64,000 nucleotides of DNA from Tribonema minus (taxonomy: Eukaryota > Sar > Xanthophyceae > Tribonematales > Tribonemataceae): the NCBI GenBank assembly GCA_017506865.1, contig JAFCMP010000057.1:310001-374000 (forward strand), given 5' to 3'. The position numbers and the translations under genes are program-made. Positions 1-63,700 of this stretch are shown here, piece after piece (positions within the stretch are counted from its first letter, which is position 1; each line of letters begins with the position of its first letter). The notes beneath the pieces were generated by a model. The model was not told the DNA's origin, ran no database searches, and saw only the letters and a program-made list of their open reading frames with translations.

Positions 1-3000
1 GAGTTCACGGAGTGGTGGGCGGGTGAGGCGCTGATTCCTCGCAACAAGTTCGCGCCATACGATCAGCCATTCAAGGTGAGTACTTGCGGGTGTTGAGGCT
101 GTTGACGCTGAGTGTGGTGCTGATCTTGATAATGAGTGCTTGCTTATGATGCTCCTGGTGTTTACCACTTCGTGTTCATTGGAGTACCTGCTTGGCTGAC
201 AGAGCAAGGAGCACTAACAGCAACGATTCGCAAATGCTGCGGCGTGTCCACTGTGCTGTTCAGTATGCTGGGGCACAAGGGTAGCTACGATTCATTGATG
301 CTGATTGTGCTGGGGAACCGAACATTGCTGCTCACTTCATGATTTTTGTTATAAATGAACTTGAAGCAAAGTTGAATGATGACTTGTGGCACATGGGACT
401 CCAATGGGCAGCACAGCAGGCATATATTCCTGTGCAAGTGGCATGAATGCATAGCTGCTTAAAGAAAGTCAGTCCGTGAGCTGAAGGGGCAGGCGTGAGT
501 TTTACTGCAGAAAGCACAGAATCGTCAGCCTGTTTTATTGTGACGCAAGTACTGGTGAGTCTACCAGCTTCCACAGATTACTTTGCTCTTGTATGGTCAC
601 ATGACGTAGCATCTTTGTAACAGTAGCTTGTCATGCCAGCCGGATCAGAATTCAACCATCATGTATGCGCCCCCTTTTGTGGTCCTCGTTATGGGTGCTT
701 GTGCAAGAGGTCCACGTCACCTTCAATGGGCAACTCGGTGATCAATGCTGCAGTGGGGGCACAGCGTGGCATTGTTGGCTGGATCAAAGCCGTGTTTGCT
801 ATAGCTGGTCAGTGCGGGCACGACACATTCTAAGGCACCTGCATAGCCCAAACAGCCTTGATGACTGAACATGTGTGTCGCTTCACCCCCAAACTTCGAG
901 TTTGTTACAGGGGTTGTGTTGGGGGCTATTCCCTTCTCAATATTACCTTGCGTACTGTTTGTGAAGTTGAAGGTGTAGAGCAGACTTCAAAAATACAACG
1001 CCAGGTGTGTGCAGATACGAAATTCAGAATTCAATCTCGTCTAGTACTTCAATCTGTTTAAACTCAATGACTGGTCCTCTGCCCTGTACCCTTGCAATGC
1101 AGCTCATCCTGAACCTGGCAGTGGGGGGCACGCTGCCAGGGGCCATGGCGCCTGCCGACATACCGCTGAATGCCATGCCCATGCGTATGGAATTTGACTA
1201 CGTGCGTGTGTGGGAGCTCACACCTGAGGAAATGGCGGCGGCAAACCCGTTCCCTGGGCCTATAATGGTGCCCACGCCGCTTGAAGATCAGGTGCGACCA
1301 TGCAGTGTGTGTGTCGTGTGTGACAGCGTGTAATGAAGCATCAGGTTGTAAGTACTTCTTGAAGTACCATTCGCAGCTGTGCGTTGTGGTATGCACGCGC
1401 TGACGGCAGGCAGGTGTGTATGCTGGGATAGCGCACAGCCTTCATGCGGCTGGAAGAGTTGCAGTGCTGCAGCTGAACTGGGCAGTCAGCCTTGCGGGGC
1501 ACGCATGTGGTGCTCATGGGTACAGAAGAGGTGAGCTACTAGTGCGATGTGTGTGGCATACGGCTTTGTTGAAAACTGAACAACAGTTGATTACTTTTGC
1601 TGGTTGCAAACTGTCTGACCACTACGACACGCAAATGATCAAGTGGAGCAACCGAATATGCATGAACCAGTCTAACTTTCAAGAGGCGCAGGCTGCAGCG
1701 GCGTTTGCAGCGTGTGCAACTAGCATGCTGCTTCAAAAGCTGTCCATCTCGGTGGGTGTGAGTGTACCATTGTTGGGTGGGAGGCTGGCTACTGCATGCA
1801 TACGGCAATCAATCGTCATCGAAACCACCTTCAATTGCACCACACCTGCACTTACTGTATCACCTCACTCACTTTGCGCATTGCAAACACCGCTCTAAAA
1901 CCATGTACAGGCGGTCGCGCCGTACAACCGGGGGCCAATCACCGGCGAAAAAATTCCATGGACACTGTACCCAGGTGGCACGCGAATCGACGCCGAGTTC
2001 TTTGATTATGGGCCGCAGGGACTGGCCTACTTTGATACGACGCCGGCGATGAACATGGGGACTTCGGCTTTGAGACCGTATGCTGGGGTGGAGGTGTCCG
2101 AGGACAATGTGAGTACACATGTAATCATGTACAACAGAACTGACAAGTACTTGCGGATAGGTATGTAGCTGTAGCATGTAGCACCATGGCGTAGCAGAGA
2201 TCATGAAAAGAATATCATGGCGGCGGCGGGAGGCCCGTATTGCCAACTCTGAATCAGCGCAGAAATGCAAGGAATCCGATCTAGCGTGCGCACAAGCGCA
2301 GGATATTAGCACCAGTGCTGCAGATGGCAATGGCGCTTGTCAACAGGACGATGGCACGAGTGGCAGCAGCAGAGCAACTGGAGACGGACGCGCAGCGCAC
2401 AAACGCAAGAGGGTACAGAATGACGGTTGGTCAATTTCCGATCAAACAGGCGAAGGGGAGCACACGGGCGGGCAAAGTGCAGTCAAGCGCTCTAGAACAG
2501 GTCATAACAGTCTGGAACAGCAACCTCTGATGCTAGACGACGAAGCTGGAGGTGGAGGCAGTGCGGACCCGGAGTACAAGTGCAACTTATGCGACCTCGT
2601 GGTGAAGAAGGGCATGTCGCTGCTCTCGTTACAGCAGAGGTTAAACGCCCACATCGCGGCGAAGCACCAGCGCAAACACCACAGTGGGACAGCAACAACG
2701 TTCCTGGAGCGCTCCGACCTCAGCACGTCGCACTTGCAAACCATCTACACCGAGTGTGCCTTGTGCAAAAACCTGTTTCATGCCAACAAGACATTCAGAG
2801 TGGACAGCAGCGATGCCAGCGCGGGCAAGCACTGCCGCAAATGCAGGCCTATCACTTCACCCGCTGCAGTGGCGGCAACATTGTCAACAACAGCATCAGC
2901 AGCACCGCTAGCACCTGATGCATCGACGGCAACAGCTACCACGTCGCTGCCACAGCAGCAACCGGCGTGCACACCCATCGGCAACCCCTACGCAAAGGGA

Positions 3001-6000
3001 CCAGCGCACGCGCAGCAGGCACCTGCTGCTCAGGCTGGTGGCAGCAGCTCCTCCGGCAGCTCGAAGAGGCCGGAACGTGGGGGCAGCAGTGCTACACGAG
3101 GGGGTCGGGGTCGCAGTGGAGGGCGCGGACGTGGCAATGGAGGACGCGTTCGCAGCGGCAGCAATGATGCAGACATCAGCAGTAGCAGAGCGACTAGCGG
3201 CAGCAGAACCGGAGGCGGCAGCAGCAGCGGTGCCGGCGGCGGCAGTGCAGCCGGTACTAAGGACAGCGGCGCTGGCAACGGCCGCAGCAGTGATGCCAGC
3301 AGCCGCAGCGGCGGTGCTAGCAACAGCGGCAGTGGCGCGCGAACTCAAAACGGCCGCGGTGGCCGTGGCAGCGGTCGCAGCAGCGACAGCGGCGGACGAG
3401 GCTGTGGTCGTGGCGGCCGCGGCGGCGGCGGAGGGGGCCCCAGAGCGGCAGGTGCGGCGACAGCAGCGGCAGCGCCAGGCCCTGCAGGCGCAGCAGGTGG
3501 GGCAGGTGGGCTTTTCACGTGGACCATCTCAACCCCCGCAGTCGCAGCAGTGCTTGACAGCATCAGCCTCGATGAGCTGTGCAAGCTGCAGTTCGCGACA
3601 ACTAGAAGCCTTGCTAGACCACGCAATCGTCGCTATGTGGGAGCTGCACTGGAGAACGCAGCAACACATCTGTTGGCACACACAATGACGATGTTCGTCA
3701 ATGCGGCGCGGGAGCCAGATTCCGCAGGGCGGGTGCAGCGACTGCAAAGATCCACGATTCTACACCACCTCATGCCATCACTCATCACCTCCACCGATGG
3801 CGCACCTGGCATCACTCGCTCCGACAGAATCAGAATGTTGGCACGCGGTGAGCTTGACCGGTTGGTGCCAGCGCTCCTCGCACACGCGCGTGCGCACCGG
3901 CGCTGGCGCGCGCGCCAGCAAACGGAGGCAGCGATCAACGCCTACGTCCTACAGTGCATGGGCACACGGGGGGGGCTACAGCAGGCAGCGCGTTTCCTTC
4001 AGCCCAAAACGGTGGCGATACCTGATGATGACTGCTTTGCCGCCATGCAGTCCAAACACCCCCCCGCTGCGCCAGGGGAACAACTCCATGAGCTATCCGG
4101 CATGGTTGATCAGCTTGTGGCGAAAGCAGCCGACATGCCAGCAGAACTCAGCCTGTTACAGGGGGAGGGAATTGAGCCAGAGACGGTTGCCAAGCTCATC
4201 CAGCGAGCAAGCCCTTACAGTGGAGCAGGCCCATCGGGGCTGCGCTACAGCCACCTGCAGGATGCGCTACGCACAAGCTGGGGACGGCATGAGTTTGCTG
4301 CTGTCCTCACACGGTGGCTTCAGACCGTTATGCGGGAGGCTGCGCGGCTGCCGGATGCCTTCTGGCAGTTGCATGGCGCGGGGCGCCTGACGCCACTTGC
4401 AGAACAACAGGAAGATGGTACAGCTAAGCAGCGGCCCATCGTTTGCGGCGAGGTGCTGCAGCGACTATGCACTTCGGTGTACGTGGCAGACCGCAAAGAC
4501 TTCCTGGCGGAGCTCCTTGAGCCAGACGGGCAGTATGGGGTAGCCGTCTCAGCAGGAGCGGAGAAAGCGGCCATGGCCGGCAAACTCGCGTATGAGCTCG
4601 GTCACTGGCAGTTCATGCTGGACCTCAAGAATGCCTTCAACATGGTGTTCGTCCTGGCGGCAGCGGAATGGGTAGCAGCACAGCTGCCGGACTTCCTCGA
4701 CTACTTCATCGGCACATACGTTCGCACTCGGCCACGCCTGCTGTTCCAGCACGTTGACGGCTCCACGCGCATCATCATGTCTCAGCGCGGGTTTAAGCAG
4801 GGGGACCCCGCGGCACCGATGCTCTTCTGCGGCGCCATTGCTCAGTGCTTGAAACGGTTCAATGAGGCGGCGGCTGCGCAGCGCGCGCGGAGGCGGATGG
4901 GCGCCTACATGGACGATGCCAACGTCCGAACAGGCGCTTGCACGCTGACTCAGGATGACATACAGGCGGTGGCGCAGCTCAAACAACACTTTGCGGAGGT
5001 GGGGCTGGAGCTAAACCTCACCAAGTCACGCGCGCTGCCTGGCAGGGGGCATGTGGTGACAGACCACGAGCGGCAACTGCTGCAGCAGCTGGGCGTTCAG
5101 CTAGTGGGGGATACGGATGAAAATCAGAACCGTGGAGCTGTGTTGCTGGGGGTGCCGGTGGGCCACAGCAGCTTTGTGGACGCATGGCTGCGCAGGGAAG
5201 CGGGTGCAGGCGGGGCAGGGGCTCGATTTGCAGAGCGATGCGCGCGCCTGACATCTCCGAGGGCTATGTTCAGGTTACTGCGCTACTGCGTGGTGCCTCG
5301 CATGACGTACTGCCTGCGCACCATTCCCACTACGCAGACAGCGCCAGCCGCCAAGGAGTGGGATCGGGTCACGCAGTGGGTGCTTGAGCACTCAATGGGC
5401 CTGCAGCCACCAGGCCAGACCTGGCGCCAGTTTGAGCAAAGTGGGGCCCACTTCCATCTGGCAGCGCACGGCCCAGCCTTACAGCAAGCGCGACTCCCAA
5501 CACGGCATGGCGGCCTTGGCATTACCAGCGCCTGCGACATCGCTGATGCTGCGTATGTGGCGGGCACGTTGCAAGCGCTGCAACCAGCACTCTCTGGATG
5601 GGCGGGGGTGCTGCAGCAGGCGGCTCCTCAAGCGGCTGCAGACAACGCTGCTGAGGATGCGGCAACACAAGCGGCACCGGCAGCAGCGGCAGCAGCACCA
5701 GCACCAGCAGCATCAGCAGCGGCAACTGTTACAGCGGCAGCGGCGGTTGCCAGTGGAGGCGCGACCGCCCCGGCAGCGGCAACTGCATCAGCGGCTGGCC
5801 GCGCTTATGGCGCAGCCATTCCGGCAACACACGACGCAGCTGCCGCTGGATCAGGGGCCGCGGCGGCAGCACAGGCGGCACCAGCGGCAGCAGCAGCAGC
5901 GGCGGCGCACGGCGCAACTACTCCGGCGGCAGCAGCAGCGGCGGCAGCAGCAGCTGCTCCAGCATCAGAGGCTGCTGCAGCAGCGGCAGCACATGTTGCA

Positions 6001-9000
6001 CCTCAAGTGGCCTCGGCGGCATCACTAACTGCAGCATCAACAGCAGCGGCTGCGGGCATAGGCAATACAGCTGCTACAGGCCCTACTAGCCTAAGGGCTG
6101 CTGCAGCACCTGCAACAGGAGCAGCGTCGGCAGGCGGCGCCGCAACCGTGCCGGCTGCGACAGCGGCAATGGCGGTGGCAGCGGCCAATGCGGCAGGTGC
6201 TGCACCAACACCTGCGGCAGCAGCAACACCACTGGCAGCAGCAGCAACGGCAGGCGGCACAGCTGCAGCACCAGCGCACGCAGCAGCGGCAGCCGTCAAT
6301 TCAGGCGCTGCGCGTTCCACACCAGCAATGCTACAAGGCGCAGCAGCAGCAGAGGTGGCGCGCCTGCCCCTCATGCAGACGATCGCCACAGCTGCCACAT
6401 CTCTACGTGCAGCAACAGGTGACAAGCTGGAACATATACTGCCACCAGCGCTAACGCCACTGCAGCAGCAACCACCTACGCAGCAGCCGCCGCTGCGGCC
6501 GACAGCAGGTGGTGGCACTGGTGCGGATGCTGCTTGCGTACTTGACGCCAGTGCTCTGCAGTTGCAGTGTAGCCTGAAGCGCCCCAATCAGAGTGCGCTT
6601 GCAGATGCCGTCGCTACCGAGCTTGCAGATAAGGTGGAGGCGGACCTGCAACAGCTGCCGCAGGGCACGCAACGCACGCAAGCACTTGCTCGATTCCGGT
6701 CGCAGCGCCACATGCACTCGATCGGCATGGCATTCCTCAACGAGCCCATGTACTCCACAACGGCTTCGTTCGATGGCCTATCCTGGCAGCTGGCCGTCAA
6801 ACGCGCCATCGGAGTAGAGGAGCAGACGGCAGGCTGCAAGCTGTGCGGGAAGTCGCCGGGCGGCACCCTGCATGCACGGCTGTGTCAAGCGCCACGCGTC
6901 AAGGCGCACGACACCATTGTCCACAATAGCGTCAAGAGGGCCACGCAGCGCCTCCTGCGGCAATACCTCAAAACGGGACTGGTGGACGAGGACTACACGC
7001 CGTTTCTGGGGTCCGCCGGGCCGCCGGGGAGTCGCAGGATGGACATCGTGCTGCCTGCCGACGCCTTCCCGGTGACCGGCTACGACGACCCGACACGCCA
7101 CCTACCGCTCATGGTGGACGTTACCTGCTTCGAGGCACAGGTGGCGTCGCGGGCGGCGAAGACTGCAGCAGACCCCGAGCGATGCTGCCGCGACCAAGAG
7201 GCCGCCAAAACTACCCACTATTCTGGTCATTATGATCAGAATTGCTACAAACTTGCCACATTGGCAATAGGGTCATTTGGCAGCATCGGGGAGCAGGGGC
7301 GGAAGCTGCTGGAGGCTGTGGCGACGGAGTATGCCAGCAGGATGTCAGTGCCCGGAGGAGCGCGCCCTAAAGCTCTCAAGGGCATCGCCCTGGCGCGCTT
7401 ACGCTCGGCACTGTCGGCAGCGCTCCACATGGCGTACTCTGGCCGTGTCATGACACACATGGCAGAATCCAGGGGGGGGGGGCACATGGAGGAGGACGTA
7501 GGGGAGGACCCCGAGATGCCATTTGGCGGCGGCGGCGTTTGAGTGGTTGTCGTTGCGACACTTTCAGACTGTCATACGACATGTAGATTCCTTACAGCTA
7601 GATGCCAATCATCTGGGCTTTTTCGCGCCCTGAGCGAGAATTAATAAAAAGTACACATGTAATGTATGTGGGTAATGTACATAGAAGCAGCTAGTCGCCA
7701 ATGGTATGGTGTCTATGCTGCACATGCTCTATATGATACAGGGTGCTTGCCCCTCAAGCGACAATGAATGAATGTATATACCTCGAAGTACTTCAGAAAA
7801 ATTAGCAGATGAACCTCTGTGCCAGTTCACATACATGATTGCCAGATTGCACAGGATGTGACAATTTTCTTGGCTGCTGTTAGACTACTCTTGATCATTC
7901 CTAACCAGGTAGTACTGTACCTCAGTGCATTTCAAGCATGAACTCTCAGAGTACATCCAATTGCCTCTTGAAGTACCACTTGGCGCATGCTCTGCCGGTG
8001 GCTGTTCCTTTTGGCTGCTGGGTGAGGCAACTGCAACAGAAGACGACCTTATACGCCACCGCCATTTCTTGGATGCCTTGCCATGTGGCCAAGCTGAGGC
8101 AAGCACTGATGCTTGTCTGCCGTGCTCAGTATCCCCTCCCCCCCCTCTCCCTTGACCCAATGATTTACCCTCTTTACCCCTCTTTGCCCAAAGAGACTGT
8201 ATACGACTGCACCTACTCTACTCACCCAGTCCGCTGCTGTGTGCCCTGTACGGCTGAAGCCATACATACTGAGCTGCGCAAATGTGATCTGCGGCAGCAA
8301 TTGCCACAACTCCGCCATTTGTTCAGGCACAGCTGACTTTCCCATGGTGGTCCTCCAGTTAGTGTTCTTACCGAGCATCATGCCTTCAGGACCGGCCTTG
8401 ATGTTTTGGTTGCGGAAAATGCAGCCTGCAAACACTGTGGCATGCCTCACCTTATGCTGGGCTTTTGACACATTACGGAAATGTGTGCACTGCATGGCGA
8501 TGGCTGCTCCTGTTTTGGCCACGGAAATGTGACTCATGATCATTGCCTGTACCGTAGTCGTCTTGGCTGGCGGCGCTGCCACGACCACTTGTAATGCCTG
8601 CACTCTTAAAACGAGCCTCTTTGTGACTAGCGTATCCCCATGCTCCCCTTGCTCTCTCACCCCCCTAGGTCTTCATCCCCGCGACCGCCTTCAAGTTTGG
8701 GGACAGCAGCGGCGCCTACATCACGGACAGCCGCTCCTGCTTGTACTTCTGAATGCATGCACTCGAGTATTGCCTGCTGCTGGATTTCATCACACTCTCT
8801 GTCTGTCCCATCCCGCACCACTGCGCGCACACACGCAGGTCTTCATCCCCGCGACCGCCTTCAAGTTTGTGGACAGCAGCGGCGCCTACATCACGCTCGA
8901 TGCCGGCGAGTGGACGCGCTACACCATCGCGCTCCCCTACCCCTACCTCGAGATGTGGGTGGAGATGCGCCACAGCATCCTCGGCGGCGGCGCCTTCCGC

Positions 9001-39395: not shown

Positions 39396-39409
39396 GGGGG
39401 GGGGGGGGG
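39396..39409. repeat. Poly-G run (14)
   Basis: Borders the retrotransposon pile on its left side; the last G is also the first base of the GTACAGTG at the insertion point. Confidence 0.9.
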
Positions 39410-39416
39410 TACAGTG

Positions 39417-39557
39417 ATGCCATTTGGCGGCGGCGGCGTTTGAGTGGTTGTCGTTGATACACTTTCAGAAGCCACACGACATGCAGACTCCGTACAGCAG
39501 CATCAACTTAGACCATCATCTGGGCTTTTTCGCGCCCTGAGCGAGAATTAATAAAAA
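39417..39557 (+). mobile_element. Short 3'-end copy of the retrotransposon
   Basis: Matches the last part of the element from ATGCCATTTGGCGG through the stop codon region to TTAATAAAAA, with some divergence in the middle. GTACA lies on both sides (GTACAGTG before, GTACACAC after). Opposite orientation to the following copies. Confidence 0.88.
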
Positions 39558-39593
39558 GTACACACTGCAGGTTCAGCCTGAGATTCACTGTAC

Positions 39594-39616
39594 TTTTATT
39601 AATTTCGCTTCGCAAT
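39594..39616 (-). mobile_element. 23-bp tail-only insertion with 8-bp duplication
   Basis: The plus strand reads TTTTATTAATTTCGCTTCGC and three more bases, flanked on both sides by CACTGTAC (39586-39593 and 39617-39624). On the minus strand this is GTACAGTG, then a unit ending in AATTAATAAAA, then GTACAGTG. It looks like an insertion of only the last bases of a related element. Confidence 0.7.
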
Positions 39617-39624
39617 CACTGTAC

Positions 39625-41158
39625 TTTTTATTAATTCTCGCTCAGGGCGCGAAAAAGCCCAGATGATTGGCATCTAGCTGTAAGGAATCTACATGTCGTA
39701 TGACAGTCTGAAAGTGTCGCAACGACAACCACTCGAACGCCGCCGCCGCCAAATGGCATCTCGGGGTCCTCCCCTACGTCCTCCTCCATGTGCCCCCCCC
39801 CCCCTGGATTCTGCCATGTGTGTCATGACACGGCCAGAGTACGCCATGTGGAGCGCTGCCGACAGTGCCGAGCGTAAGCGCGCCAGGGTGATGCCCTTGA
39901 GAGCTTTAGGGCGCGCTCCTCCGGGCACTGACATCCTGCTGGCATACTCCGTCGCCACAGCCTCCAGCAGCTTCCGCCCCTGCTCCCCGATGCTGCCAAA
40001 TGACCCTATTGCCAAAGTGGCAAGTTTGTAGCAATTCTGATCATAATGACCAGAAAAGTGGGTAGTCTTGGCGGCCTCTTGATCGCGGCAGCATCGCTCG
40101 GGGTCTGCTGCAGTCTTCGCCGCCCGCGACGCCACCTGTGCCTCGAAGCAGGTAACGTCCACCATGAGCGGTAGGTGGCGTGTCGGGTCGTCGTAGCCGG
40201 TCACCGGGAAGGCGTCGGCAGGCAGCACGATGTCCATCCTGCGACTCCCCGGCGGCCCGGCGGACCCCAGAAACGGCGTGTAGTCCTCGTCCACCAGTCC
40301 CGTTTTGAGGTATTGCCGCAGGATGCGCTGCGTGGCCCTCTTGACGCTATTGTAGACGATGGTGTCGTGCGCCTTGACGCGTGGCGCTTGACACAGCCGT
40401 GCATGCAGGGTGCCGCCCGGCGACTTCCCGCACAGCTTGCAGCCTGCCGTCTGCTCCTCTACTCCGATGGCGCGTTTGACGGCCAGCTGCCAGGATAGGC
40501 CATCGAACGAAGCCGTTGTGGAGTACATGGGCTCGTTGAGGAATGCCATGCCGATCGAGTGCATGTGGCGCTGCGACCAGAATCGAGCAAGTGCTTGCGT
40601 GCGTTGCGTGCCCTGCGGCAGCTGTTGCAGGTCCGCCTCCACCTTATCTGCAAGCTCGGTAGCGACGGCATCTGCAAGCGCACTCTGATTGGGGCGCTTC
40701 AGGCTACACTGCAACTGCAGAGCACTGGCGTCAAGTACGCAAGCAGCATCCGCACCAGTGCCACCACCTGCTGTCGGCCGCAGCGGCGGCTGCTGCGTAG
40801 GTGGTTGCTGCTGCAGTGGCGTTAGCGCTGGTGGCAGTATATGTTCCAGCTTGTCACCTGTTGCTGCACGTAGAGATGTGGCAGCTGTGGCGATCGTCCG
40901 CATGAGGGGCAGGCGCGCCACCTCTGCTGCTGCTGCGCCTTGTAGCATTGCTGGTGTGGAACGCGCAGCGCCTGCATTGACGGCTGCCGCTGCTGCGTGC
41001 GCTGGTGCTGCAGCTGCGCCGCCTGCCGTTGCTGCTGCTGCCAGTGGTGTTGCTGCTGCCGCAGGTGTTGGTGCAGCACCTGCCGCATTGGCCGCTGCCA
41101 CCGCCATTGCCGCTGTCGCAGCCGGCACGGTTGCGGCGCCGCCTGCCGACGCTGCTCC
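39625..41158 (-). mobile_element. 5'-truncated retrotransposon copy (1.5 kb)
   Basis: Closely matches the full-length element from about position 6118 to 7649, on the opposite strand. Starts inside the alanine-rich region. A 479-codon reading frame (39689-41128) keeps the CCHC knuckle and endonuclease motifs. One extra C in the homopolymer at about 39793-39804 (12 instead of 11) shifts the frame and replaces the normal C-terminus. The far end abuts another copy directly at 41158/41159. Confidence 0.93.
39689..41128 (-). pseudogene. Truncated retrotransposon ORF, endonuclease end
   Basis: 479 codons covering part of the alanine-rich stretch, the CKLCGKSPGGTLHARLC knuckle and the RRMDIVL / LMVDVTCFE endonuclease motifs. 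It lacks reverse transcriptase and fingers. Compared with the full-length copy a few residues differ (for example Trp for Arg, Tyr for His). The C-terminus is altered by the homopolymer frameshift. Part of a dead-on-arrival copy. Confidence 0.85.
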
Positions 41159-41292
41159 TTTTTATTAATTCTCGCTCAGGGCGCGAAAAAGCCCAGATGA
41201 TTGGCATCTAGCTGTAAGGAATCTACATGTCGTATGACAGTCTGAAAGTGTCGCAACGACAACCACTCAAACGCCGCCGCCGCCAAATGGCA
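41159..41292 (-). mobile_element. Short 3'-end copy of the retrotransposon
   Basis: About 134 bases from TGCCATTTGGCGG to TTAATAAAAA, joined without spacer to the next copy (41158). Its start is preceded on the minus strand by GTACACAC (41293-41300). Starts within two bases of the same point as the copies at 39417 and 62895. Confidence 0.88.
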
Positions 41293-41300
41293 GTGTGTAC

Positions 41301-41356
41301 TTTTATTAATTTCGCTTCGCAAGGGGCGCGAAACTTTTATTAATTTCGCTTCGCAA
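41301..41356 (-). mobile_element. Tandem tail-only insertion flanked by GTGTGTAC
   Basis: Two tandem units of a tail variant (plus strand TTTTATTAATTTCGCTTCGC) separated by AAGGGGCGCGAAAC. The pair is bounded by the 8-bp direct repeat GTGTGTAC at 41293-41300 and 41357-41364. Same structure as 39594-39616. Confidence 0.65.
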
Positions 41357-41364
41357 GTGTGTAC

Positions 41365-41845
41365 TTTTTATTAATTCTCGCTCAGGGCGCGAAAAAGCCC
41401 AGATGATTGGCATCTAGCTGTAAAGAATCTACATGTCGTATGACAGTCTGAAAGTGTCGCAACGACAACCACTCAAACGCCGCCGCCGCCCAACGGCATC
41501 TCGGGGTCCTCCCCTACGTCCTCCTCCATGTGCCCCCCCCCCCTGGATTCTGCCATGTGTGTCATGACACGGCCAGAGTACGCCATGCGGAGCGCTGCCG
41601 ACAGTGCCGAGCGTAAGCGCGCCAGGGCGATGCCCTTGAGAGCTTTAGGGCGCGCTCCTCCGGGCACTGACATCCTGCTGGCATACTCCGTCGCCACAGC
41701 CTCCAGCAGCTTCCGCCCCTGCTCCCCGATGCTGCCAAATGACCCTATTGCCAAAGTGGCAAGTTTGTAGCAATTCTGATCATAATGACCAGAAAAGTGG
41801 GTAGTCTTGGCGGCCTCTTGGTCGCGGCAGCATCGCTCGGGGTCT
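41365..41845 (-). mobile_element. 5'-truncated retrotransposon copy (0.48 kb)
   Basis: Nearly identical to the last 480 bases of the full-length element, from GACCCCGAGCGATG to TTAATAAAAA. The homopolymer has 11 C as in the full-length copy, so the C-terminal frame (41473-41853) is intact. GTACACA on both outer sides (minus strand) is the likely target duplication. Confidence 0.92.
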
Positions 41846-44800
41846 GTGTACAATATATGCTACAACACAAAAATGCAGCCTCAGGAAGTGCTCGTAGCAT
41901 TCATGGAATCGACAAGAGCCTAAAGTACTGATTAAATCTGCTCACACATATAGCTTTCGGAAGATTTGATTGCTGCAAGCATGCATGCATTGAACTGGTG
42001 CAATAATGTTGCTTTGGACGGTCGAAGAGAAGCTGAGATGCAATCATGATGTGCACACATTGATCAAGGCGAAGCAGGAGCAGAGCACGCGTGCTAAAAC
42101 TTATGTGTCACTATCTGTGGCGACAAAACCCTCCATCGACTATTGGCGCACACCCTCAAATTTTAATAGACTGGCATACTCGTTCATATATTAGGAACTT
42201 TTGGAGGTATGGTATATTCTTTCTTGACTATAGCCAATGAAGTATACTTCATGAAGGTGTGCAAGTCGCTGCAACCATGGTCGACGGATCTGCACTTTTG
42301 CTTCTAGTTCATTACTATTGATGATTAATCAATTGATGCCGTTGAGGCTGGTGCGTGTGGTGATGCATCACCTGGACCCACGATGAATGCCTGCCACCTA
42401 GGTGACAGTGTGGTACGACGTCGATCGCGATGTCTGCAGCCAGGAGCACCTGGTGTAGTACTGTTGCAGTGGCGTACGACACTACGTGCGGTGCGTGACG
42501 CCCCCTGGAGGTGTGTGTCACTCAGCAAACCTACTTGATCACCATGACGACCAAGCACCGCGCCCTGTCTTGGACTGCAAACGCCAAGATCACATGCAGC
42601 ATGCGCTGACTGATGCCCAGCATGCAGCTCTGCCAGTGCAAGACTCACGTCATGCATGGCTTCCGTGCGGCACATGAAAGCCCGTCCTCAGGCTAGCACT
42701 GTGCCCCCGTGAGTCCAACTCCTCCAACTAGTTGCAACCTGCTGCGCGCCTTGGTGTACCAGATGCTCTGTTGGCACTCAGTCTGGCCCTACTCCTCCTC
42801 CGTTTATTGCCGCTGTCAGAGGGACCCCTGGAGGTGAACATGGCCAGCAGCAATTTCCGCTGCTCCAACGGCTTCTGCCAGTGACCTACTGCAACGCCTT
42901 TGCCGCCATGCAGCTCTGGACATGATGTCATGCAGTTTCCGCTGCTGCGCCTGACAGCAGAGTTGCCCTTTGACACAAGTGCTCTGTGTGCTGCGTTTGA
43001 GCCGCGTGGCATCGCGTCTTTTGCTTTTCGCAAAAGGTCTTGCACTTTTGTGCGCTGCATCATCATCCTGAGGTCCTGTCAACTGCGCCTTTCAGATTGG
43101 CTGTTGCCTTGCCAATATGTGTGGTGCGAACGTGCCCTGTGCGAGGCTGTGACGCCGCACGATTGAATTGCCACATGGTTTGCTTCTTCTGTTGCGCCTG
43201 TTCCGTTGATGGCTAGCTCTACTTGTTGGGCTAACAAATGGAATATCACGCTGCTGCATTCCGCTGTGTTTGGCTGCTCCTCTGCGCGTAGTGCGCCGCG
43301 TACCTAAGTTGTTGCTTGCAAAGTTGGTCCAGCTGCAATCTGAGCACTCTCAGAAGCGACAGAATCTGGCTGCAGCATCACCTGGAGCAGTTCATACTAC
43401 GTTTGCACGCATCCATGGTGACGACAGTGCCGTTCTGTTGCTCCGTTGCGTTTGCGTTCGAGTTTCTTCTTGTACACTTCAACTTGTACACTTCAACTAA
43501 AACTTGAAGTTGGTTGAGAGAGGGCGGCAACACGGTTTACGCCGTCCTTGATGCGCCTGATCATTGGCTATGCAAAATGTTCGTCGAGGAGGAAGCGTTT
43601 ATATGGTGGACTTCAAGCCAGCTTGAGAAATATGCTGGATGCTCACACCACAAGGAGCTTGCCCGGTTCTGAATCAGTGACAGTCAAGTGGATACATGCT
43701 GCTGAAACGATCGCGCAGCATAGGTCGGGCAAGCAGGTGTTCAATTTGGCTTTTGTCATGGACAAACCCAGCATACAAAAATTGTGAGCCACGTTGGCGG
43801 ACTTCAACACTTAGTGGTTTGAACCCTTGCCGCGTTCGCTGCTCCGTTTCAACATGATGGCTAGGGGGCTATGGGTGATGGCACCGGTGTTGGAGCTGGT
43901 CAGATTCACTGAGCAAACTTCAACTCAAAGTTCAACTTCTCTACTCAGGTTCACAAGAAAGCACCCCCCTCCTGAAGGAATGGGGGGCGAGCGACCAGGA
44001 ACAGACAGCCTCTTGTGTAAGTTGCGCTTAAAGCAAGTCAGAGACCATCAACATGTTGCTTCATCTGAAACATGTTCATCACTGCATGTTTCTGTTCCTT
44101 TGAGATCATGTTATGCGCATGCTGCGGGATTACATCTGCATTGCCATTAAGCCGTCATGCCACGCTTAGCACATCAACACCATCAGGCCAGCGCCAAAGG
44201 GCTTTCTGGCTCTAACCCAGTTAGTGCCTCAGGAAGTGAAGTTGCGCGTAACGCTTGAAGTAGACGAAGCGAACTTGCAATAGAGACCGTCTCGAGAGCT
44301 CTGCAGGTCGCGAAGCGTGGCCGCAGGCTTGATACTGCAAATGCGGTACATGCCAAGTGCCAAAACGCTGCATGCGGTCAGCGCCGCCTGTGCAGCACAA
44401 CACCTCGCGAGCTGAAGAGCCAGCGCCAGAATAAGCTCGCAGCTTCCTGGGTGTTGCTGCTGGAGAGCGGCAACTAGACCCCAGCGCGCTGATTGGTGAA
44501 CGGTTGTAGCGATACGCACGTACGCGTACCCGGCTCGCAAAAATCAGCAAGCGTGGCATCACTCAAGTGCATCATCACCCAAGTGCATCAGCAGAGCGGA
44601 GGCTTGCGCGCGCCATGACTTAAGAAGGCTCGCGCCCTGAAGGGTCCCTCGCCTACAAATTGACGTTCTGAAATGTCCAAGTTCAACATGGGATCATATT
44701 TTCTCTCAAGATCCTGAGCGCAGGAAAATCTTTTTCCCCCATTGTTTAATTTAAAAATGTCTCTAGGCGTTATCTTGAACAAGGACATCCATCATCACAC

Positions 44801-46986: not shown

Positions 46987-47011
46987 CTACCAGCCTGAGC
47001 TCATTGAAATT

Positions 47012-50499: not shown

Positions 50500-50724
50500 C
50501 TTGGTCGTGGCAGCACCGCTCAGGCTCAGCTGCAGTCTTCGTCGCCCTTACTAACTGCGGCTGTGCCTCAACGCAGGTGACGCCCATCGTCAGCGGTAGC
50601 TGACGCGTGACGTTGTCGTAGCCGGTGACCGGAAGGCGCCGGCAGGCACACGACGTTCAGTCTGCGATCACCAGAGTCGCCAGTATTGGAGTGCAGACCA
50701 GCCCTGCCTTGGACATACTGCAGC
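50500..50724 (-). mobile_element. Old, diverged retrotransposon fragment
   Basis: Aligns with 40080-40320 (endonuclease coding part, minus strand) through recognisable blocks such as CTGCAGTCTTCGTCGCCC and GTCGTAGCCGGTGACCGG. Many substitutions and small indels are present. The reading frame is lost. This shows the family was active over a long time. Confidence 0.8.
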
Positions 50725-50734
50725 AGAATGTACT

Positions 50735-50910
50735 TTTTATTAATTCTCGCTCAGGGCGCGAAAAAGCCCAGATGATTGGCATCTAGCTGTAAGGAATCTA
50801 CATGTCGTATGACAGTCTGAAATTGTCGCAACGACAACCACTCAAACGCCGCCGCCGCCAAATGGCATCTCGGGGTCCTCCCCTATGTCCTCCTCCATGT
50901 GCCCCGCCCC
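50735..50910 (-). mobile_element. 5'-truncated retrotransposon copy with 10-bp duplication
   Basis: Last 176 bases of the element, close to identical, inserted into the end of the older fragment. Exact flanking direct repeat CAGAATGTAC at 50725-50734 and 50911-50920 (GTACATTCTG on the element strand). The sequence after 50921 (TTTATTAAATTTCATTTTGC, then a GGGCACAAAAGCCC stretch) resembles a further diverged tail. Confidence 0.9.
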
Positions 50911-52009
50911 CAGAATGTACTTGTGTTTATTAAATTTCATTTTGCTTCGCCAGGGGCACAAAAGCCCTCTCTTCTATGCAATGGCGGCGGCGTAAATAGC
51001 GCTCAGTTTTGAAAATGTCATCCCTGTTCAGCGCTGACTCTGAGGTTTGCAGCAGCTGCCCACTCTTGCCTCTGCCGTGTAGTCATGACCCTCGAGGATT
51101 ATGCCATTTTGAGCGCTGTGGAGTGCGACAAGTGCATATAGCCCATGGCGACACTGTGAAGCAGATGTTGTTGTTGTATGTTTGCTCGTCAGCAATTCTT
51201 GCTTTGGCTCTCACCAACCCAATGCTGTGTGTGCTTCTTGCCCATATTATTATGTTGCAAGAAAGAGCCAGTCATGCTTGTCCGCAAACAGAGCCGAGAT
51301 TTGTGCAGCATGGCTGCCTCGGCTGCACGGTGTTGGTGACACACAGACTTCTGATTTGGTATGTGTGCCACCATATTTGAGTTCGTGTGTCAGTGCATAG
51401 CTTTCTTCCTGCTGGTTTCTTCAATGTACGTGGTTGTGTGATTGCAATGTGATTCCCCCGTGCGGTGTAATCATGATGATACAGCCATTTCTCATGGCAT
51501 TTGCAAGGCAGTGCTGCCAACAGCATCAATAGAACCACAAGTAGAGCATCAATGTTGAGCGGTGTCGCAATACCAGTGTCCAATGCAGTGCAGATGAGGC
51601 TGTCTCAAAGATTGCAAACCTTGGGAATACATGGGTCACCCAGCCTCCTGTGGGGCTTTCTGACAAATGCACACCCCATGAATGGTACTCTTGTTGCACA
51701 TTCTGTAGCATGTTGACCGCAGTAGCAAAGCAGCCATCACGCACTCATCAAGTTTGTTCAAGCATGATAAAAAAAAAACAAGACTGCTGATACAAACATG
51801 CAGGCGTAGAGGAGCTGAACAAAAGGATAAAGGGAGGCATGTATATAAACGCCGGTCCAGCACAGCGACCACAGCGTCCAGAGAGTTTACCAGGAGTGTA
51901 TGCGGTTGAGCAGGCACGACAGGAACCCATCCTGGCATATGCCCAAGTGCTCTGATGTCTTGTCTTTTTATCTTGTTCTTTATTGTTGAAAGTGAGAATC
52001 ACTGTCAGT

Positions 52010-52244: not shown

Positions 52245-52395
52245 CTGTCAGTCAGGGCAATCAATTGCATTGCGTTGTTTGTCCTGTACATAAGTGTGCG
52301 CGCAGAATAGCGAACCCAGTGGCCAGCGGCAGGGGTGTAATGTGGGGCGCTGTGCTTATGCAGTCCAGGTGCAGCCTATATGGCATTCATCACAA

Positions 52396-52600: not shown

Positions 52601-53394
52601 TACCCTGTCGTGTGCAAAGCTTGAGAAAAGACCATCACAGTTGGCATATTTGCAAGAGTTGTGCTGGAGCACCAGGTGATGGTGCAGTGCAACTTGCTCT
52701 CTGCTGATAGTTCTCTACGCATGCCCCACAAGCAACAGTCCCATATTGTGATGATGCACACACAGGGAGTCACCACCAACTTAAAAGCCACATGCCCCAC
52801 TTGATCACACAACACAACAACTGTGGTTTGGGGTGGGTCATCAAGAAGCATGCTGTACATGCGTAGCACGAATTACATGTGTGGACTGCGTTGCGCATTG
52901 CTGCAGCAGCCCGGTGTTGACACATCTGGTGATGGCAGCTTAAATTCAGGCCGATGCGACTGCAGAAGCGGCAGTGGCGCCGGAGCGACCGCAGCAGCTG
53001 CAGTGGCGGTCGTTGCCCCAAGCGAGAGCATCGTGCGGCTGTGCAATAATCATGAATGCAGCTGCGATGCAGCAGCACAGAAACTCCGCATGCAGATGCG
53101 CGTCATGCAGTGCAGCCTGCACTAGCAGAACAAGGTTTCATCAGACTATCAGCTGCAGCTGCAGGCTCGGCACAGCAGTATCCGCCGGCGGTGGCAACAA
53201 CAGAAGCACGAGCGGCTGAACTGATGCTCCGGCGCTGACATGACAGCTGCAAAGAGGCCGCTGTTGGAAGCTTCCGTTCACAACATTGCCGCCAACACCG
53301 GCAGCACCAGCGGCAGCAGCGGCAGCGGCAGCAGCGGCAGCGACAGCAGCGGCAGTGGCAGCACCAGCAGGCATGGCAGCGCTCAATTCGCAGG

Positions 53395-56300: not shown

Positions 56301-58724
56301 CTGTGGGTGCTGGCGGCAACCTGGCACAGCGATGCAGGGGGCAAGTGTACATTTGAATTAGCGAGGTGAGATGCAGTGCGATTGCATTGGGGACGGGCAG
56401 GCCATTGGTGGACAAAGGGGTTGCTTTCATGCAGCATTAGACTACATAACTGCAGGTAGCGTGCATGCGACGTTCAGGCAGTCTGGCGCTTGGATAGTAT
56501 GCAACCATCACACTCGATAGCAGAGGGCGCATCCTAAGTTCCCGGTCACTGTTGATGTGGTCAATTCTGACTGAATACGTCAGATTTTTACATCCACGCA
56601 TGCATAAATACCCCACCTGTGCCAGTACTTCAGCGCTGGGGCTGCTCAACCCCCCCGACTCCCACGGATCTGCTGCGGACCGCGACTTTTTTGCTGACGA
56701 TGATCGCGAAGCCTTGGAGTTTGATGAGGAGGAGCGCGAAGGCACCACCATGTCTGCTTCAGACAGCCCAAAGAGCCCTCGCGTGTGCCAGTTGGCAACT
56801 ACTCGTTCCACAGCCGGCCTGCGCACAGAGAGGGACACAGTTACAATGATGCATTTGAGTTGACTGACTGGTATGGCAGTCAACAAGGGGGGTCAGTCCC
56901 CTCCCCTGCCGTCATTGCCACTGATGAAGCAGAACAAGTCCCCCCTATAAGAGGAATCACCCAACCAGTGCGCAGGCCGAGAAGACAGTATGTATGCGCT
57001 TCTGCATCCTGCTTGCACAAGCCCCAAACCATAGTGTGTTCATGTGGTACATACATACTTCAACATACTAAACACAGCGTTATATGTGACACGGCGATCT
57101 TTGGTGGGAGGCCCTGACCCGAACCCTGGCAGGCCAAGGCACAGGCACGCGACTTGCGCCTTGTGGTGTGGTGACAACGTGCAGTCAACGATGCTGCTAC
57201 AAGTGACTGTAGGTAACACAACTGCTGCGGAGCAAAAAGTATGCCCTACATACCTGGCTCTAAGTGAACCCTCATCCTCCAAAAATACGCCAAAATTGGT
57301 GCTAGTAGTCCTGAGTGATGACACTGTATAGATTATCAGCATTACTGCAGCTGCCCGCCGCACCGCGCTCGCTTGTCAGAAAAGGAGGTTAGGGTTGGGG
57401 CCCTGATCGAAACCACAGCCTGGGGGTGTCAAACCCTAACCTAACTCAACACCTTCTAATGTTAACCCTGAACCCTAACCCTAACCCTAGCCCTAATTCT
57501 AATCAAGGCCCGCCACAACGGTTCTGCAACCTCATTGCTACAGCTCTTCCCCGTAGGCACGCAAGTCATGACAGTCATCCGCCGCGCCTCGCTCACCTGT
57601 CCGAAGAGGGCACCTCACGCAGCTTAGGCAGCGTTTCCCCGCGCATGCGCTGTCCGAACCGTGCCGCAAAAACAAGTCCCGAGTCCTTGGCACCAGCGCT
57701 CGGCGGACGACCCGACGACTTGCACAGCGAGTCAATCAGGTACACCACGCCCAGGCGCTGCTGCGGCTTGGCGTGCTTGAGGAACTTCTCCACGGCATGC
57801 ACGACGCGCTGCGCAACGTGTGTCGCGGCGCAGAGGGCAAGTGGCAGGCAAGAGAATGCGCGCATGTGATCAGTTGAGGACATTGGTGACTGAAGTTAGG
57901 CGGCACGGTCGGCATGGTGGTTACGCGCAGGTGGAGCAGCGGTGGCAACAGGACAGGCAGCTCCAGTCACCGTGTCAGCATGCGCAGGTGACTGTTATGT
58001 ATGGGTTCAAGTTGAACATGACATGGCATGACTTGGGTAACAGTAGTCAACCGGCACATGTGTGCCGTGCACATGTCATGACCGACCATACACTCGTTGT
58101 CAACTAATCAAGGGGAACAAATGGGCGAATGGATCCAGCATACTGCTGAAAACATCAGCACCGAAAAACTGCTCATTCGTTGACCATCGACAAATGATAT
58201 ATGGGCATTCATCGGACACGATCACTGTCATAATTTTTTAGTGCTGCGGCAACAAACTGTTGACCACTGTAGGCAAGCTCCCATGGGTAGAGAGGCAAGG
58301 AGCGCATGTTGCAAACGCATTAAAAAAATTGGTACTAGCGTCACTGCAGCAGCTGAGGTCATTTGGAGCAATTAACCTTGCAGGCACCAGCCAGTACCAG
58401 CTGTTGCGCGGACATGCTTGCACATCTGAAAATTGAATTTGAAACGAACGTGCGCTTCTAGCGTCGAGCCATGACACGCCCTTGCACAAAGTGGCATGGT
58501 GCTGAACACTGAAACCCCGCCTTGATTCAAACCAGACTGCACCTCCTGTATAGCTCTTGTTTTGGTACGTCGCGACATATCCATGCACCTTATGGCATGA
58601 TGTAGCAATGTTCAGTACCTTGTACTCCTTCACTTGAGCCTGCGCCTCCTTTGCCGCTTCCTTCACACGCGCCGCAGATATGGGGCGCTTGCTTGTGGCC
58701 AGATACGCCAGCGCCTTGTTCAAC
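53395..58724 (-). CDS. CID-domain (RPR) protein, CTD-binding mRNA-processing type, first exon unresolved
   Basis: Eight exons on the minus strand: 58724-58619, 57808-57597, 56818-56617, 56320-55931, 55607-55383, 54821-54714, 54483-54375 and 53876-53395 (TGA). Phases close at every junction, giving 610 residues. The first seen codon is split (phase 2), so a short upstream exon with the ATG is missing. Residues 1-125 form a CID: LNKALAYLATSKRPISAARV, VVHAVEKFLKHAKPQQRLGV, VYLIDSLCKSS, FAARFGQRM, RVVANWHTRGLF. CIDs bind the phosphorylated C-terminal domain of RNA polymerase II (RPRD, SCAF4/8, Pcf11, Nrd1). The rest is low complexity: Ser/Lys, DDALYDELLAEYPDEDYGY, Pro/Tyr/Gln-rich repeats, poly-Pro, and an acidic end with KRQKTE. 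No RRM is seen. The intron after 54714 starts GCAAGC (GC-AG). The intron 56819-57596 holds a telomere-like tract. Nuclear role inferred. Confidence 0.82.
57432..57494. repeat. Interstitial telomere-like tract (CCCTAA)n
   Basis: Degenerate CCCTAA units, clearest as CCCTAACCCTAACCCTAGCC near 57472-57491. A GGTTAGGGTTGGGG stretch in opposite sense lies just upstream (57387-57400). Located in an intron of the CID gene. Consistent with TTAGGG-type telomeres. Confidence 0.75.
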
Positions 58725-60782
58725 CTGTGCAAACGCAGGCACCATACGCATCAACAGTGGGTAAGCTTAATACTACCAATAAATGAGCCTGTGTCTCAAG
58801 CAACAGCACCAGGCGCAGCACCATTGAATGAACTGATGGCAGCTTTTGGGTGTGCGTCAATACATTGATTTGAAGTGCGTGCAGCCATCCCGCTGAGTGT
58901 ACACTATCATGCAGTTTCAGGTTGCACGTCTGCCGTAACGGTGTTCTTTGAGCACAACTTCGTACCTGGTGGTTCAGTGTACACTCAGCCGGCAGACGTG
59001 CAATCTGACACTGCATGATAGCTCAACTGTCAGCAAGGACCATGGACGGGATGGCAAGGCCCATGCAACCAACTTTTAAGTTGGTGTCAACAGCTCTTGT
59101 TGTATGCCGTGAGGATCATAGAGTACTGTGTACTCATCTGCTGCTCTCGCCTAGAGCATTCACGTGCGTGTTTGTTCAGGCACTGGCAATCTGACACCCT
59201 GGATACATTGCAAGTATGTCAACTTGGCATGGATGTACGCTTCGACAAGTTGGTGGCAGATGCCGCCAACAAAAGCCAGGCTCGCTGTTGTGCAATTGGC
59301 ATGCTGATCAACCGGTATGTACGATCTAAGAGCTAGTTCAAGACACGATCCAGCTGACAGGAAGCTTCAGCATCTCGACGCAAAGTCTTAACCAAAGCAT
59401 CCTGACAGGGTGCCCCCGCAAGACCTGACGACGGATACTGCAAATTTACACCTCGCCGTCGGGCCTGACTGCTGATGGAAACAATCAAAAAACCCAACTC
59501 TGACAGGAGATTACACAGCCGCCACCTTCCCAGTTCCTGCAGAAATTACCAAGTTCGCTGGATCTACTCGCGTCTTTCGACGCAGCGGCCCTCATGAGCT
59601 TGGCAAGACATGAACTGCAAGAAGCGTTTGTCGTCAAAAGACTCGCCTTTCGCCTTCAGGCCAGTCCGCCATGGTGTCAAAGCTGCTGGTGCACCAGATC
59701 ACGTTGCGCCGTGAACTTGGCTGATTTTTTGCTCAAGAGCCTCTGAGCCACTTGTCCTTCAGGCGCTACTGACCGCCGCACGTGCCTTTGGTAAGCGTTG
59801 CACAGGAATGCAGCACTGGCAGCACACAGCCGTCAATAGCAGTCGCTCTCTTCACGTGTTTGGGGAGGATCTCTCTCGGGTATGTACGTATACCATCGAG
59901 CAATGGTGATGATCAGTTCAGGTATATGGAAGTGCTTCCGAAGTGAAGTGAGGGGGCATGCCCAGAAGATTGCTGCCACTCGGAACAAATCTCTTTGCTG
60001 CCACTGGAAAATACATTCTGCGTTGCATCGAGGGCTGCCGTATGACACAGATGCCGCCAGCGAACGCGGTCTTACTTGGCTCGCGCCAGGAGTCCGCAGC
60101 GGCTGTAACGGCATCCAGTCTCGTGCATTACAGCACAAATGCAGCACATTCAGCAAGTAGACTGTACGAATTGGTACACATATGCTGTGTGCATCATGCC
60201 CTCGCTGACGTAGGTCGTTTACAGTCAACCAGCGTGTTTGACGACTTTGTCCACGCCCTCATGAGTGAGAATCAATGAAACTCTGATAAGAAAGTACTTA
60301 TAATAAAATTACTTAGCACACCCTGCAACACAATATGCCACGTGTCTAGCACCAGTACTGCCTGCGCCAGCGTGATGACGTGAACGGCAGGCCAGACTGC
60401 ATGCGATGGTGCAATGCATTGCCGCCTGGCACAGATCTGCCAAGCACAGCTTCCACGCAGTGCGCTCTGCTGAATCACCTGGCTCACTTAATCGGCGCTC
60501 CCGTGACAAAATTTGGGGTGAAGCTTCTTCAACTTCAGCAGTGCCGCGGCCCTCGCCGGCCAGCGCCGAACCGCCGGCTCCTCCGTAGATTTAGTTATTG
60601 CAAGCCCGATTTATCGTGCGCGCAGCCCATGCGGTCCAGGACATAATATACAACTTCAGCTTCAACTTGAAACTGAAACCGTCAAAATCAGCGAGTGTTG
60701 GCAGCGCAGGAGCGCAGCAGCAATGATCATACAGCCTGTGGGCAATAACCACTGTAAGTCTAGTTTGTGAGAACAGATACGC
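58725..60782. other. Divergent intergenic region
   Basis: Between the CID gene (-) and the ankyrin gene (+). It should contain both promoters and the missing first CID exon. It has the unusual inverted repeat 58892-59019. Other ORFs (for example 59097-59336) have no motif. Confidence 0.4.
58892..59019. repeat. Two interleaved inverted repeats
   Basis: Segment A (GCTGAGTGTACACT, 58892-58905) and B (58906-58935, containing TTGCACGTCTGCCG) each recur as reverse complements, A' at 58976-58989 and B' at 58989-59019 (CGGCAGACGTGCAA...). The order is A B A' B', not the A B B' A' of a simple hairpin. A contains the palindrome AGTGTACACT. Confidence 0.75.
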
Positions 60783-63700
60783 ATGCGTAAAGTCGCTCCA
60801 GACTCGGAAAGCGAGCCGGGGCAGCGAATGGGCGAGAGCGGCGGCATGACGCCATCGCAAGAGCAGCAAAATCAGCAGCAGCAACATCAAGACGAGCAGC
60901 AACAAGACATCAGTCAACGCCAACAGCAGCAGCATGGTCAGACGCATGAGCAGGCACCGCAAGTAGAAGAGCCTTTGGGCAGCGCACTGTCCTCGACGCC
61001 CACTCCTGCATTGCAGGAGTCCCAGCACTCTCGCCCAATCACTACCGTCACCGACGGCATGAGACGCAGCAGCAAGCTTCATGTGGCATTACAGGCTAGA
61101 GGGAGGTCTCAAAAGGATATATCTGATGAGATATCGTCCCTGCTCTATGCGGCGGGAGGCAGCAGCCCGGGCAAGCCCCCATCAGTAGCTGAGAGGGACC
61201 CCGATGGTAACACAGCTCTGGCGCTTGCCGCCAGCAAAGGCATGCCTCACATAGTGCAGCAGTTGTTGGATGCTGGCAGCGACATAGACGCAGCTGATCT
61301 TATAGGCAGGCCACCCTTGATGCGAGCAGTCATGGAGCGCCACGCGGAGGCAGCAGATGTACTTTTACGGGCTGGCGCAAACATGGACATTGTATCCAAC
61401 GAAGGCCGCACAGCGCTGCACTACGCCGTCCTCATCAAGAGCTACGAAATGGTGCGCAAGCTCCACATGGCTGGCGCATCACAAGCAATTGCCAGTGCCG
61501 ATGGGGCCACGCCGTTGTGCCTCGCGTCATCCCAGCACCTCGAGGGCATGGTAGAACTGCTCACCAGCCTTCTGACGGCGGCGCACGAGTCACACACCGG
61601 CAGCGGCACAATCAGCATCACTGGCACCGGTGCGAAGCCCGTTGTTGACGTCCCAGATGCTCACGGCTACACGCCGCTGATGCACGCGACGCTGGCGGGC
61701 AGCGTGAAGATGACAACAGCATTGCTCAGCGCTGGCGCCGATCCAAACGCGTTTGACATCACCGGCGCCACCGCCCTCTACCACGCTGTCACGCGGCGCC
61801 AGAAGTCTGTGCTACGCTTGTTGCTCGCAGCGGGTGCGCGCGTAGACACGGACGCGGGGGGGGTGCACTGCCCTCTGTATCAGGCGGCGGTGTCGGGCAG
61901 CAACAGCATGACAGACATGCTGCTGAAAGCGGTGCGGGAGAGGGAGAAGGAGGAGCAGGCGACTGCGGCAGCCAAGCAGAAGGCGGAGGGGGGGGCAGGG
62001 GGCAGGCGGCACAGCCTGATGCTGGACCATGATGCTGAGGTCAAGGAGACCCGAAAGGAGAGGTGGTTTGGCTTCACTGCACTCAAGGAGGCGCAGCAGC
62101 GAGGTAAGCAACCTGTACCGAACCAAGTGATCATGTTCAGTCTCCAGTGTGTTGGAAGTACATCAGCTGTGGCTACTATGTGGTACTGAACAACATAATT
62201 TCATAGTGAGCATGCACACGTTCTCCTTCAAAAGGCATTGAGCAGCGCAACATGATGTTTTGCACACACTTGCTACTTCTGCACAATCACTTGCGTGCAA
62301 TGCAGGTGTTTTAGAGGTTGAAGCGTCAGGAGCACACATTGTTGATGGCTCCTACTTTTCTAACCCCATACCATTGCACAAGAATAACAGCAGCATATCA
62401 AGAATATCTCATAGGGTGTCCGCCCTCCGTAAGGAAGGAAACAAAATAATGACTGGTGGCAGACCTTGCACAGCCGAGCATGCTGCACGCGCTGAGAGTG
62501 CAGTAGTCATGGTGCACATGCGTTTGTGCGCAATGCAGTGTCAAGTCACTTCAATGATGGACCAGGCTGCAAACAAAGAAGCAGACCTGCGCCAACATGC
62601 TGTGGTGTACAAGCAGCGCTCTTTGTACCAAGCCACAGCACCTAAATCATCTTAAATTATGAAGCTCACAGCATGATCAACCGCCAGCCATGCACGGAGC
62701 AGCACGGACAGACACTTGAAGTACATAGCGCTGGAGGCCGCATCAGCGCAACAGTAACATGTTGACGCTTGGCTGTGCAAGCATGCTGATGTATCTGGCG
62801 GAGACTAGTTTCAAGCTTGTGCTCACTGCAGGAGGTGTCAGAAGTAGTGTTGCTCAAATGCACATAGAAGTATGTGTAATGCTTGAAGTACACAGATGCC
62901 ATTTGGCGGCGGCGGCGTTTGAGTGGTTGTCGTTGAGACACTTTCAGACTGTCACACGACATGTAGATTCCGCTGATGTTTTTGGGGAAGACGACGCTCA
63001 CCACACAATTCCTACATGCATGTTGACGGTGACGTCCCCTGAAGCGTTGTTACATGTGGTAGTGCATATTAGCAGGGCGGCGCTGTCACTTTTTGGCATA
63101 GCACAAGCTGATGTGCTTCTACATGTGCTGGCACACGTAGTTACGAGCGCGCTAACCGCCCTGTGCTATTCTTGGGGTCATGACTACATGTTGATTACGT
63201 TACGGCTAAGGGTTCGGGTTAAGGGACAGCCCCCTGACTGCTCCCCCCATCCCCACCCCCCCCCCGCCCCTTTCCAACAGGCCACCAGGGGGTAGTACGG
63301 CTTCTGGCGATTGACCTCCTCCAGTATGACCTGCGCCAGGCCACAGACGAGAATGAGGAATGGGCACAAGAGCACCACCCCAACCTCACCACCCCCCGCG
63401 CCCCCCAAATCCCCGGAGCCGCCATCTGGGACACCATCAAGATGAAGACGCCTCGAATATCTGCCTACCTACCGGGTGGGGAAGGGTCCATTCGAGCGGG
63501 GGCCTCCAAGCCGGGCAACCTGCTCACGTGGTCCGTCGACAACAACTGCGCGGATCTGCTGCGCTGCCTGCTAGACGCAGACACCGCGCCCTGCGAGAGC
63601 GACTTGGACGAGTGGCGGTTTGACCTGTGCCTCAAGCCGACGTCCGCAGGGTCGCCCATTGAAGTTGCGAGCTCGGACCACAACTGCAACTCGCTGGCGG

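Follow-up and report, generated by a model that had tools for sequence, protein, structure and literature searches.

Copies of a retrotransposon that repeatedly stand beside the same few bases raise the question of whether those bases belong to the element or to the site that it enters. We address this question for a 64,000-nucleotide (nt) stretch of the Tribonema minus genome (contig JAFCMP010000057.1, positions 310,001 to 374,000; hereafter the window), which contains a full-length long interspersed nuclear element (LINE) and several truncated copies of it. A first-pass annotation, made from the letters alone, had proposed that these copies sit at GTACA as a preferred integration site. We find that GTAC is part of the target, and consider it probable that the element is an R2-like LINE with a restriction-like endonuclease (RLE) and that it inserts across the genome at a short target with the element-strand consensus AA^GTACA.

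GTAC at the insertion junctions

Genome-wide counts were obtained as tail-pattern matches over the 158-Mb Tribonema minus assembly. The tail CTGAGCGAGAATTAATAAAA occurs 3,177 times with two mismatches or fewer, and its reversed pattern does not occur. The exact tail with five A is present 1,782 times, directly followed by GTAC in 1,667 cases (93.5%), by GTACA in 1,249 (70.1%), and by the scrambled palindrome CATG in none. Background frequencies per position in the examined sequence are 0.0042 for GTAC and 0.0015 for GTACA, and among control A-runs without AAT in front, GTAC comes next after 8/267 runs of exactly five A and 8/880 runs of exactly four A. GTAC after the tails is far above chance. 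The short genome-wide target that had been proposed therefore stands; its core, however, is four bases and not five.

We examined in detail a non-random sample of 98 distinct tails from the window and six contigs (C1 to C6). The A-run is five in 92 tails, four in 4, and six in 2; GTAC comes next in 87 and GTACA in 75, and the letters past GTACA vary among copies. We located the 5' end of 86 copies (12 remained unplaced); their truncation points span the element from 1 to 5504, and most fall in the final few hundred bases. Of the 86 placed copies, 37 are flanked by a duplication of 7-13 nt, compared to about 4% of shuffled pairings; for duplications of at least 5 nt the figures are 50/86 and about 34%, the shuffled partners sharing GTACA. 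Thirty-six of the 37 longer duplications start with GTAC, 31 with GTACA, and they then continue differently. Copies truncated at many points still carry GTACA and site-specific letters on the 5' side, and the variants GTACT, GTACC, and GTACG exist with matching duplications. Because the duplications start with GTAC, the later letters differ, and variously truncated copies keep GTACA, the motif was in the target before insertion. Hence, GTAC is part of the target and not of the element, as the first-pass annotation had supposed. As a side observation, GGACA follows 3/98 tails (L011, L031, and L035); L031 has GTACAGCT on its 5' side and GGACAGCT on its 3' side, so that the 3' junction departs from the 5' side at the second base.

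A logo of the flanks, suggested earlier as a check and run here on the 98 tails alongside the whole-genome counts, gave a very strong GTAC(A) enrichment. Across the 37 sites with long duplications, information is found at G1, T2, A3, C4, and A5 (1.2-2.1 bits each), with a weaker A at -1, -2, and -4. Elsewhere within 80 nt only -52, -14, -12, -7, +6, and +7 exceed 0.2 bit, all by small amounts, and no position beyond -14 and +7 exceeds 0.25 bit; the information thus sits at the cut. We compared 24 clean GTACA targets with 529 background GTACA sites at 16 positions. The excess of A at -1 (15/24, p 0.0009) is the only one to survive Bonferroni correction; those at -2 (15/24, p 0.005) and -4 (13/24, p 0.0056) do not. 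The A-run is five at 35 of the 37 sites whatever the base at -1 (one run of four, one of six). Because it stays five regardless of that base, the cut is placed immediately before GTAC, with the five A coming from the RNA. In short, the GTAC core is near-invariant, the fifth base A is frequent and not obligatory, and there is a weaker upstream preference for A.

Two differently tailed families were found at the same motif. Tail family B (AGCCACAAGTGGAATATAATAAAA) has 552 genome places, 538 with GTAC behind; this ratio is approximate, since both counts allow two mismatches, which may fall in GTAC. Twenty-nine of 32 examined copies are at GTAC, and all 11 duplications of at least 6 nt start with it. 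Family B follows the same GTAC rule. Family C (CTTGCGAAGCGAAATTAATAAAA) has 336 genome places and seems also to sit at GTAC (5/6 examined copies). The idea that family B is a 300-bp short interspersed nuclear element (SINE) was dropped, as most copies reaching that point continue upstream; the examined part of its copies showed no reverse transcriptase (RT) and no kinship to the element protein. Two family B copies (L009 and L045) have, ahead of their tail, an apparent internal direct repeat, and L009 repeats one peptide stretch in one frame.

Copies in the window and the element protein

The flanks that the first-pass annotation had cited were verified in the window (Table 1). Six of the seven window copies keep the 3' tail, and in five of these six AAAAA is followed by GTACA; the sixth, at 41159, abuts another copy, exactly as had been described. 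The interval 39408-41851 is a nested hot spot: within 2.5 kb it holds three family C tail fragments and four element copies, the latter including both orientations, with the units mostly set apart by GTACAGTG or GTACACAC.

Table 1. Features of the element and of related copies in the window (aa, amino acids)
Feature	Position	Strand	Details
Left target-site duplication of full-length copy	2113..2125	+	GTACACATGTAAT
Full-length LINE copy	2126..7650	+	5,525 bp; five A at end
Single open frame	2203..7542	+	1,779 aa
C2H2-like motif	2575..2670	+	aa 125-156; read by eye, without Pfam match
Reverse transcriptase, RVT_1	4423..5037	+	aa 741-945; Pfam
CCHC knuckle and restriction-like endonuclease core	6835..7221	+	aa 1545-1673; profile, modelled fold, residues
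Knuckle and endonuclease residues			C1545, C1548, H1557, C1561; R1612, D1614, D1639, K1669, Y1673
3' tail	7630..7650	+	CTGAGCGAGAATTAATAAAAA; basis of genome-wide counts
Right target-site duplication of full-length copy	7651..7663	+	GTACACATGTAAT
Older 5'-truncated copy	39416..39557	+	85% identical; GTACAGTG before, GTACACAC after
Family C tail fragment	39594..39616	-	GTACAGTGA on both sides
5'-truncated copy	39625..41162	-	tail, then GTACAGTG
5'-truncated copy	41159..41292	-	tail joined to previous copy without GTAC; template-jump candidate
Family C tail fragment	41301..41323	-	then GTACACAC
Family C tail fragment	41335..41357	-	then GTTT
5'-truncated copy	41365..41846	-	duplication GTACACA at 41358-41364 and 41845-41851
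5'-truncated copy	50734..50911	-	duplication GTACATTCTG at 50724-50733 and 50911-50920
Internal fragment	62894..62971	+	GTACACA before; 3' end lost

RVT_1 is the sole Pfam match of the element protein (E 2.1e-10), and a protein search returned 99% identical proteins of Tribonema minus. A single-sequence search of the PDB with this protein gave two unrelated weak matches only. A profile built from it and 12 relatives retrieved R2 proteins first (best E 2.7e-25) and L1 ORF2 next (3e-9), a match carried by the RT part. We modelled aa 1440-1760 (mean predicted local distance difference test score 80), and a Foldseek search with this region placed R2 chains in all seven top positions (E-values 2.7e-4 to 4.7e-3). 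The knuckle reads CX2CX8HX3C (aa 1545-1561), its last spacing one residue under the pattern CX2-3CX7-8HX4C published for the knuckle before the endonuclease of RLE LINEs (PMC5678591; here and below, cited papers are represented by excerpts). Its C1548, H1557, and C1561 are invariant among 10 relatives, and D1614, D1639, K1669, and Y1673 across 10 sequences. Judged by profile and modelled fold, the element is a LINE bearing an R2-type RLE, in agreement with its earlier assignment to the RLE type.

Two other assignments were rejected. A LINE of the L1 type, with an apurinic/apyrimidinic endonuclease (APE), was ruled out by the absence of any endonuclease/exonuclease/phosphatase match to the protein in Pfam and by an A-run of five in nearly all sampled tails, in place of a poly(A) of variable length. 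The R2 family proper was ruled out by thousands of dispersed GTAC sites in place of one site in 28S ribosomal DNA (rDNA). No Myb domain was seen in the N-terminus, and the zinc-finger-like motif there rests on reading by eye, Pfam having given none. Relatives of the protein included none from the viral contigs searched, and RNA folding of the 3' region gave no signal over shuffles (z -0.98).

Between the RT and the endonuclease lies a long alanine-rich stretch (window 5593-6372, aa about 1130-1390), which is shorter or missing in some relatives. Three public gene models of Tribonema minus, named Lon protease, CCAAT-binding factor, and condensin II subunit (P0009, P0011, and P0013), include element protein sequence, which may reflect either true exonisation or insertions that were taken up into the predicted genes. 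The window also holds an ankyrin-repeat open reading frame (ORF) of 468 aa at 60783-62189.

Proposed insertion mechanism and rival explanations

The GTAC core, the exact five-A end, the duplications, the truncation, the tandem copies, and the endonuclease homology can all be read from the sequence, whereas we infer the strand and order of nicking and the reading of GTAC by the endonuclease itself. We propose that the endonuclease would nick the opposite strand at 5'-TGTAC^TT-3', and that the freed 3' end would prime reverse transcription of an RNA whose last five bases are A. A second cut, at a loosely fixed distance downstream, would yield duplications of about 4-13 nt starting with GTAC. Synthesis of cDNA would mostly end early, and the 5' junction would be closed at short microhomology. 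Where the duplication is at least 5 nt, target and element share one nucleotide or more at 41/50 5' junctions; chance for a shared nucleotide is one in four, a level that the choice of long duplications raises.

Since GTAC would be left on both sides of each insertion, the site would stay usable and tandem copies could arise. At least 14 exact element letters are found within 20 nt after the tail in 15/98 tails, one of which (L020) may be chance. At two loci (L049 and L052), the second copy is flanked by an identical duplication on both sides, which is what reuse of a renewed target would produce. The junction at 41159, where an A5 tail meets a truncated copy without GTAC, fits template jumping, which has been described for the R2 RT (PMC4117753).

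Several observations weigh against this proposal. GTAC is missing after 115/1,782 exact tails, and 34/86 placed copies have no duplication of at least 4 nt. Sorted by identity to the full-length copy, 15/15 copies at 70-90% and 58/65 at 97-100% are at GTAC, but just 3/6 at 90-97%. The CCHC/endonuclease stretch aligned to R2, yet it is weak alone (8.7 bits by sequence), and the TM-scores of the R2 fold matches are low (template modelling scores, 0.32-0.42 in Foldseek). Finally, we made the comparison with empty sites that the first-pass annotation had called for. Genome-wide searches with three joined flanks returned filled loci and short, weak matches, and no clean empty allele for any of the three; in the examined sequence there was no empty site either, since every match across a junction was either the same locus or a further copy of the tail. 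One of the three sites has a tandem unit, 82% alike and without the insert, with CTAC in place of the GTAC of the filled unit. This single diverged case is compatible with a GTAC target.

The same junctions can be explained without an endonuclease that reads GTAC. Read-through transcripts ending in ...AAAAAGUACA could pair with a nicked strand ending in ...TGTAC and, as source copies precede GTACA, the target would perpetuate itself. Such RNA-guided memory accounts for the exact five-A junction (92/98) and for differently tailed families having GTAC in common. The 24 clean targets, however, show no clear base excess from +6 on relative to background GTACA, and T at +6 over the 75 GTACA 3' flanks reaches p 0.017 before correction for four positions; pairing, if any, hardly extends beyond GTACA. 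We regard this explanation as unlikely, if worth keeping in sight. Similarly doubtful is its extension to LINE family A and tail families B and C together, as a guild of retroelements with different tails. These would share a palindromic four-base target, maintained because read-through RNA (A5-GUACA) pairs with the nicked strand; if true, every insertion would renew the target and rewrite the guide for the next round.

GTAC might otherwise be the visible core of a longer or distant motif, or of a repeated host sequence. R2 provides a precedent for a distant motif (PMC10499050), and the 200 nt upstream of insertions are somewhat richer in GTAC than the window is (0.0064 against 0.0040 per position), the downstream value being 0.0045. 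The lack of signal away from the cut at the 37 sites speaks against such a motif and, of the three joined flanks, two match well only their own locus, the remaining matches being short and weak, which makes this a slim prospect. Least credible by far, with next to no probability in our view, is that GTACA forms a conserved terminus of the element itself, the outcome that the first-pass annotation had named as fatal to its claim: GTACA does follow the tail in most copies, but the 37 duplications contradict this, as do the 5' flanks of truncated copies and the variant fifth bases. We therefore retain an RLE LINE integrating at a short GTAC-centred target as the probable explanation.

Comparison with known systems

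Long, repeated targets are what RLE LINEs are mainly known for, and retargeting is being used to adapt R2 to targeted insertion (PMC10499050). The Tribonema element shows how short such a target can be: its R2-like protein has essentially one restriction-type site as target, readable from some 1,700 natural insertions, and allows target choice by protein to be distinguished from choice by RNA pairing. The element would have a lifestyle between site-specific and random: dispersed and tied to a short sequence, with every insertion duplicating the target and so renewing it. We found no prior description of a GTAC-targeting LINE in the open-licence literature.

R2 reaches one 28S rDNA site via N-terminal zinc-finger and Myb domains and two motifs (PMC10499050). 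Like R2 (R2Bm and R2Tg), the Tribonema element has one ORF, an RT, CCHC knuckle, and RLE related by profile and fold, an exact 3' junction, and a tail-to-truncated-copy junction fitting template jumping (PMC4117753); unlike R2, it occupies thousands of dispersed GTAC-core sites with no distant motif detected. RLE LINEs are mostly specific for RNA genes, microsatellites, and similar sequences, and HERO is often non-specific (PMC4640811). Togen, Utopia, NeSL, and HERO, which include LINEs targeting microsatellites and small nuclear or transfer RNA genes, resemble the element in RLE type and target choice, but their targets are repeated genes, simple repeats, or, for many HERO, none, and not a dispersed tetranucleotide. 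The brown alga Ectocarpus has two CRE-clade LINE families with 4,821 copies (PMC12477816), likewise in a stramenopile alga; this likeness is one of host group.

The nearest precedent that we found is the LINE endonuclease of Entamoeba. That of EhLINE1 has preferred nick sites, among them one that coincides exactly with a SINE1 insertion point (PMC3118788), and EhLINE1/EhSINE1, also of the RLE type, share dispersed insertions and a short nick-site preference with the Tribonema element, a likeness of behaviour. The suggestion that a short preference sets this element apart from the usual long RLE targets is tempered by the Entamoeba case. In Entamoeba the excerpted report describes preferred hot spots in a test fragment, whereas in Tribonema minus the core is kept behind more than nine in ten exact tails.

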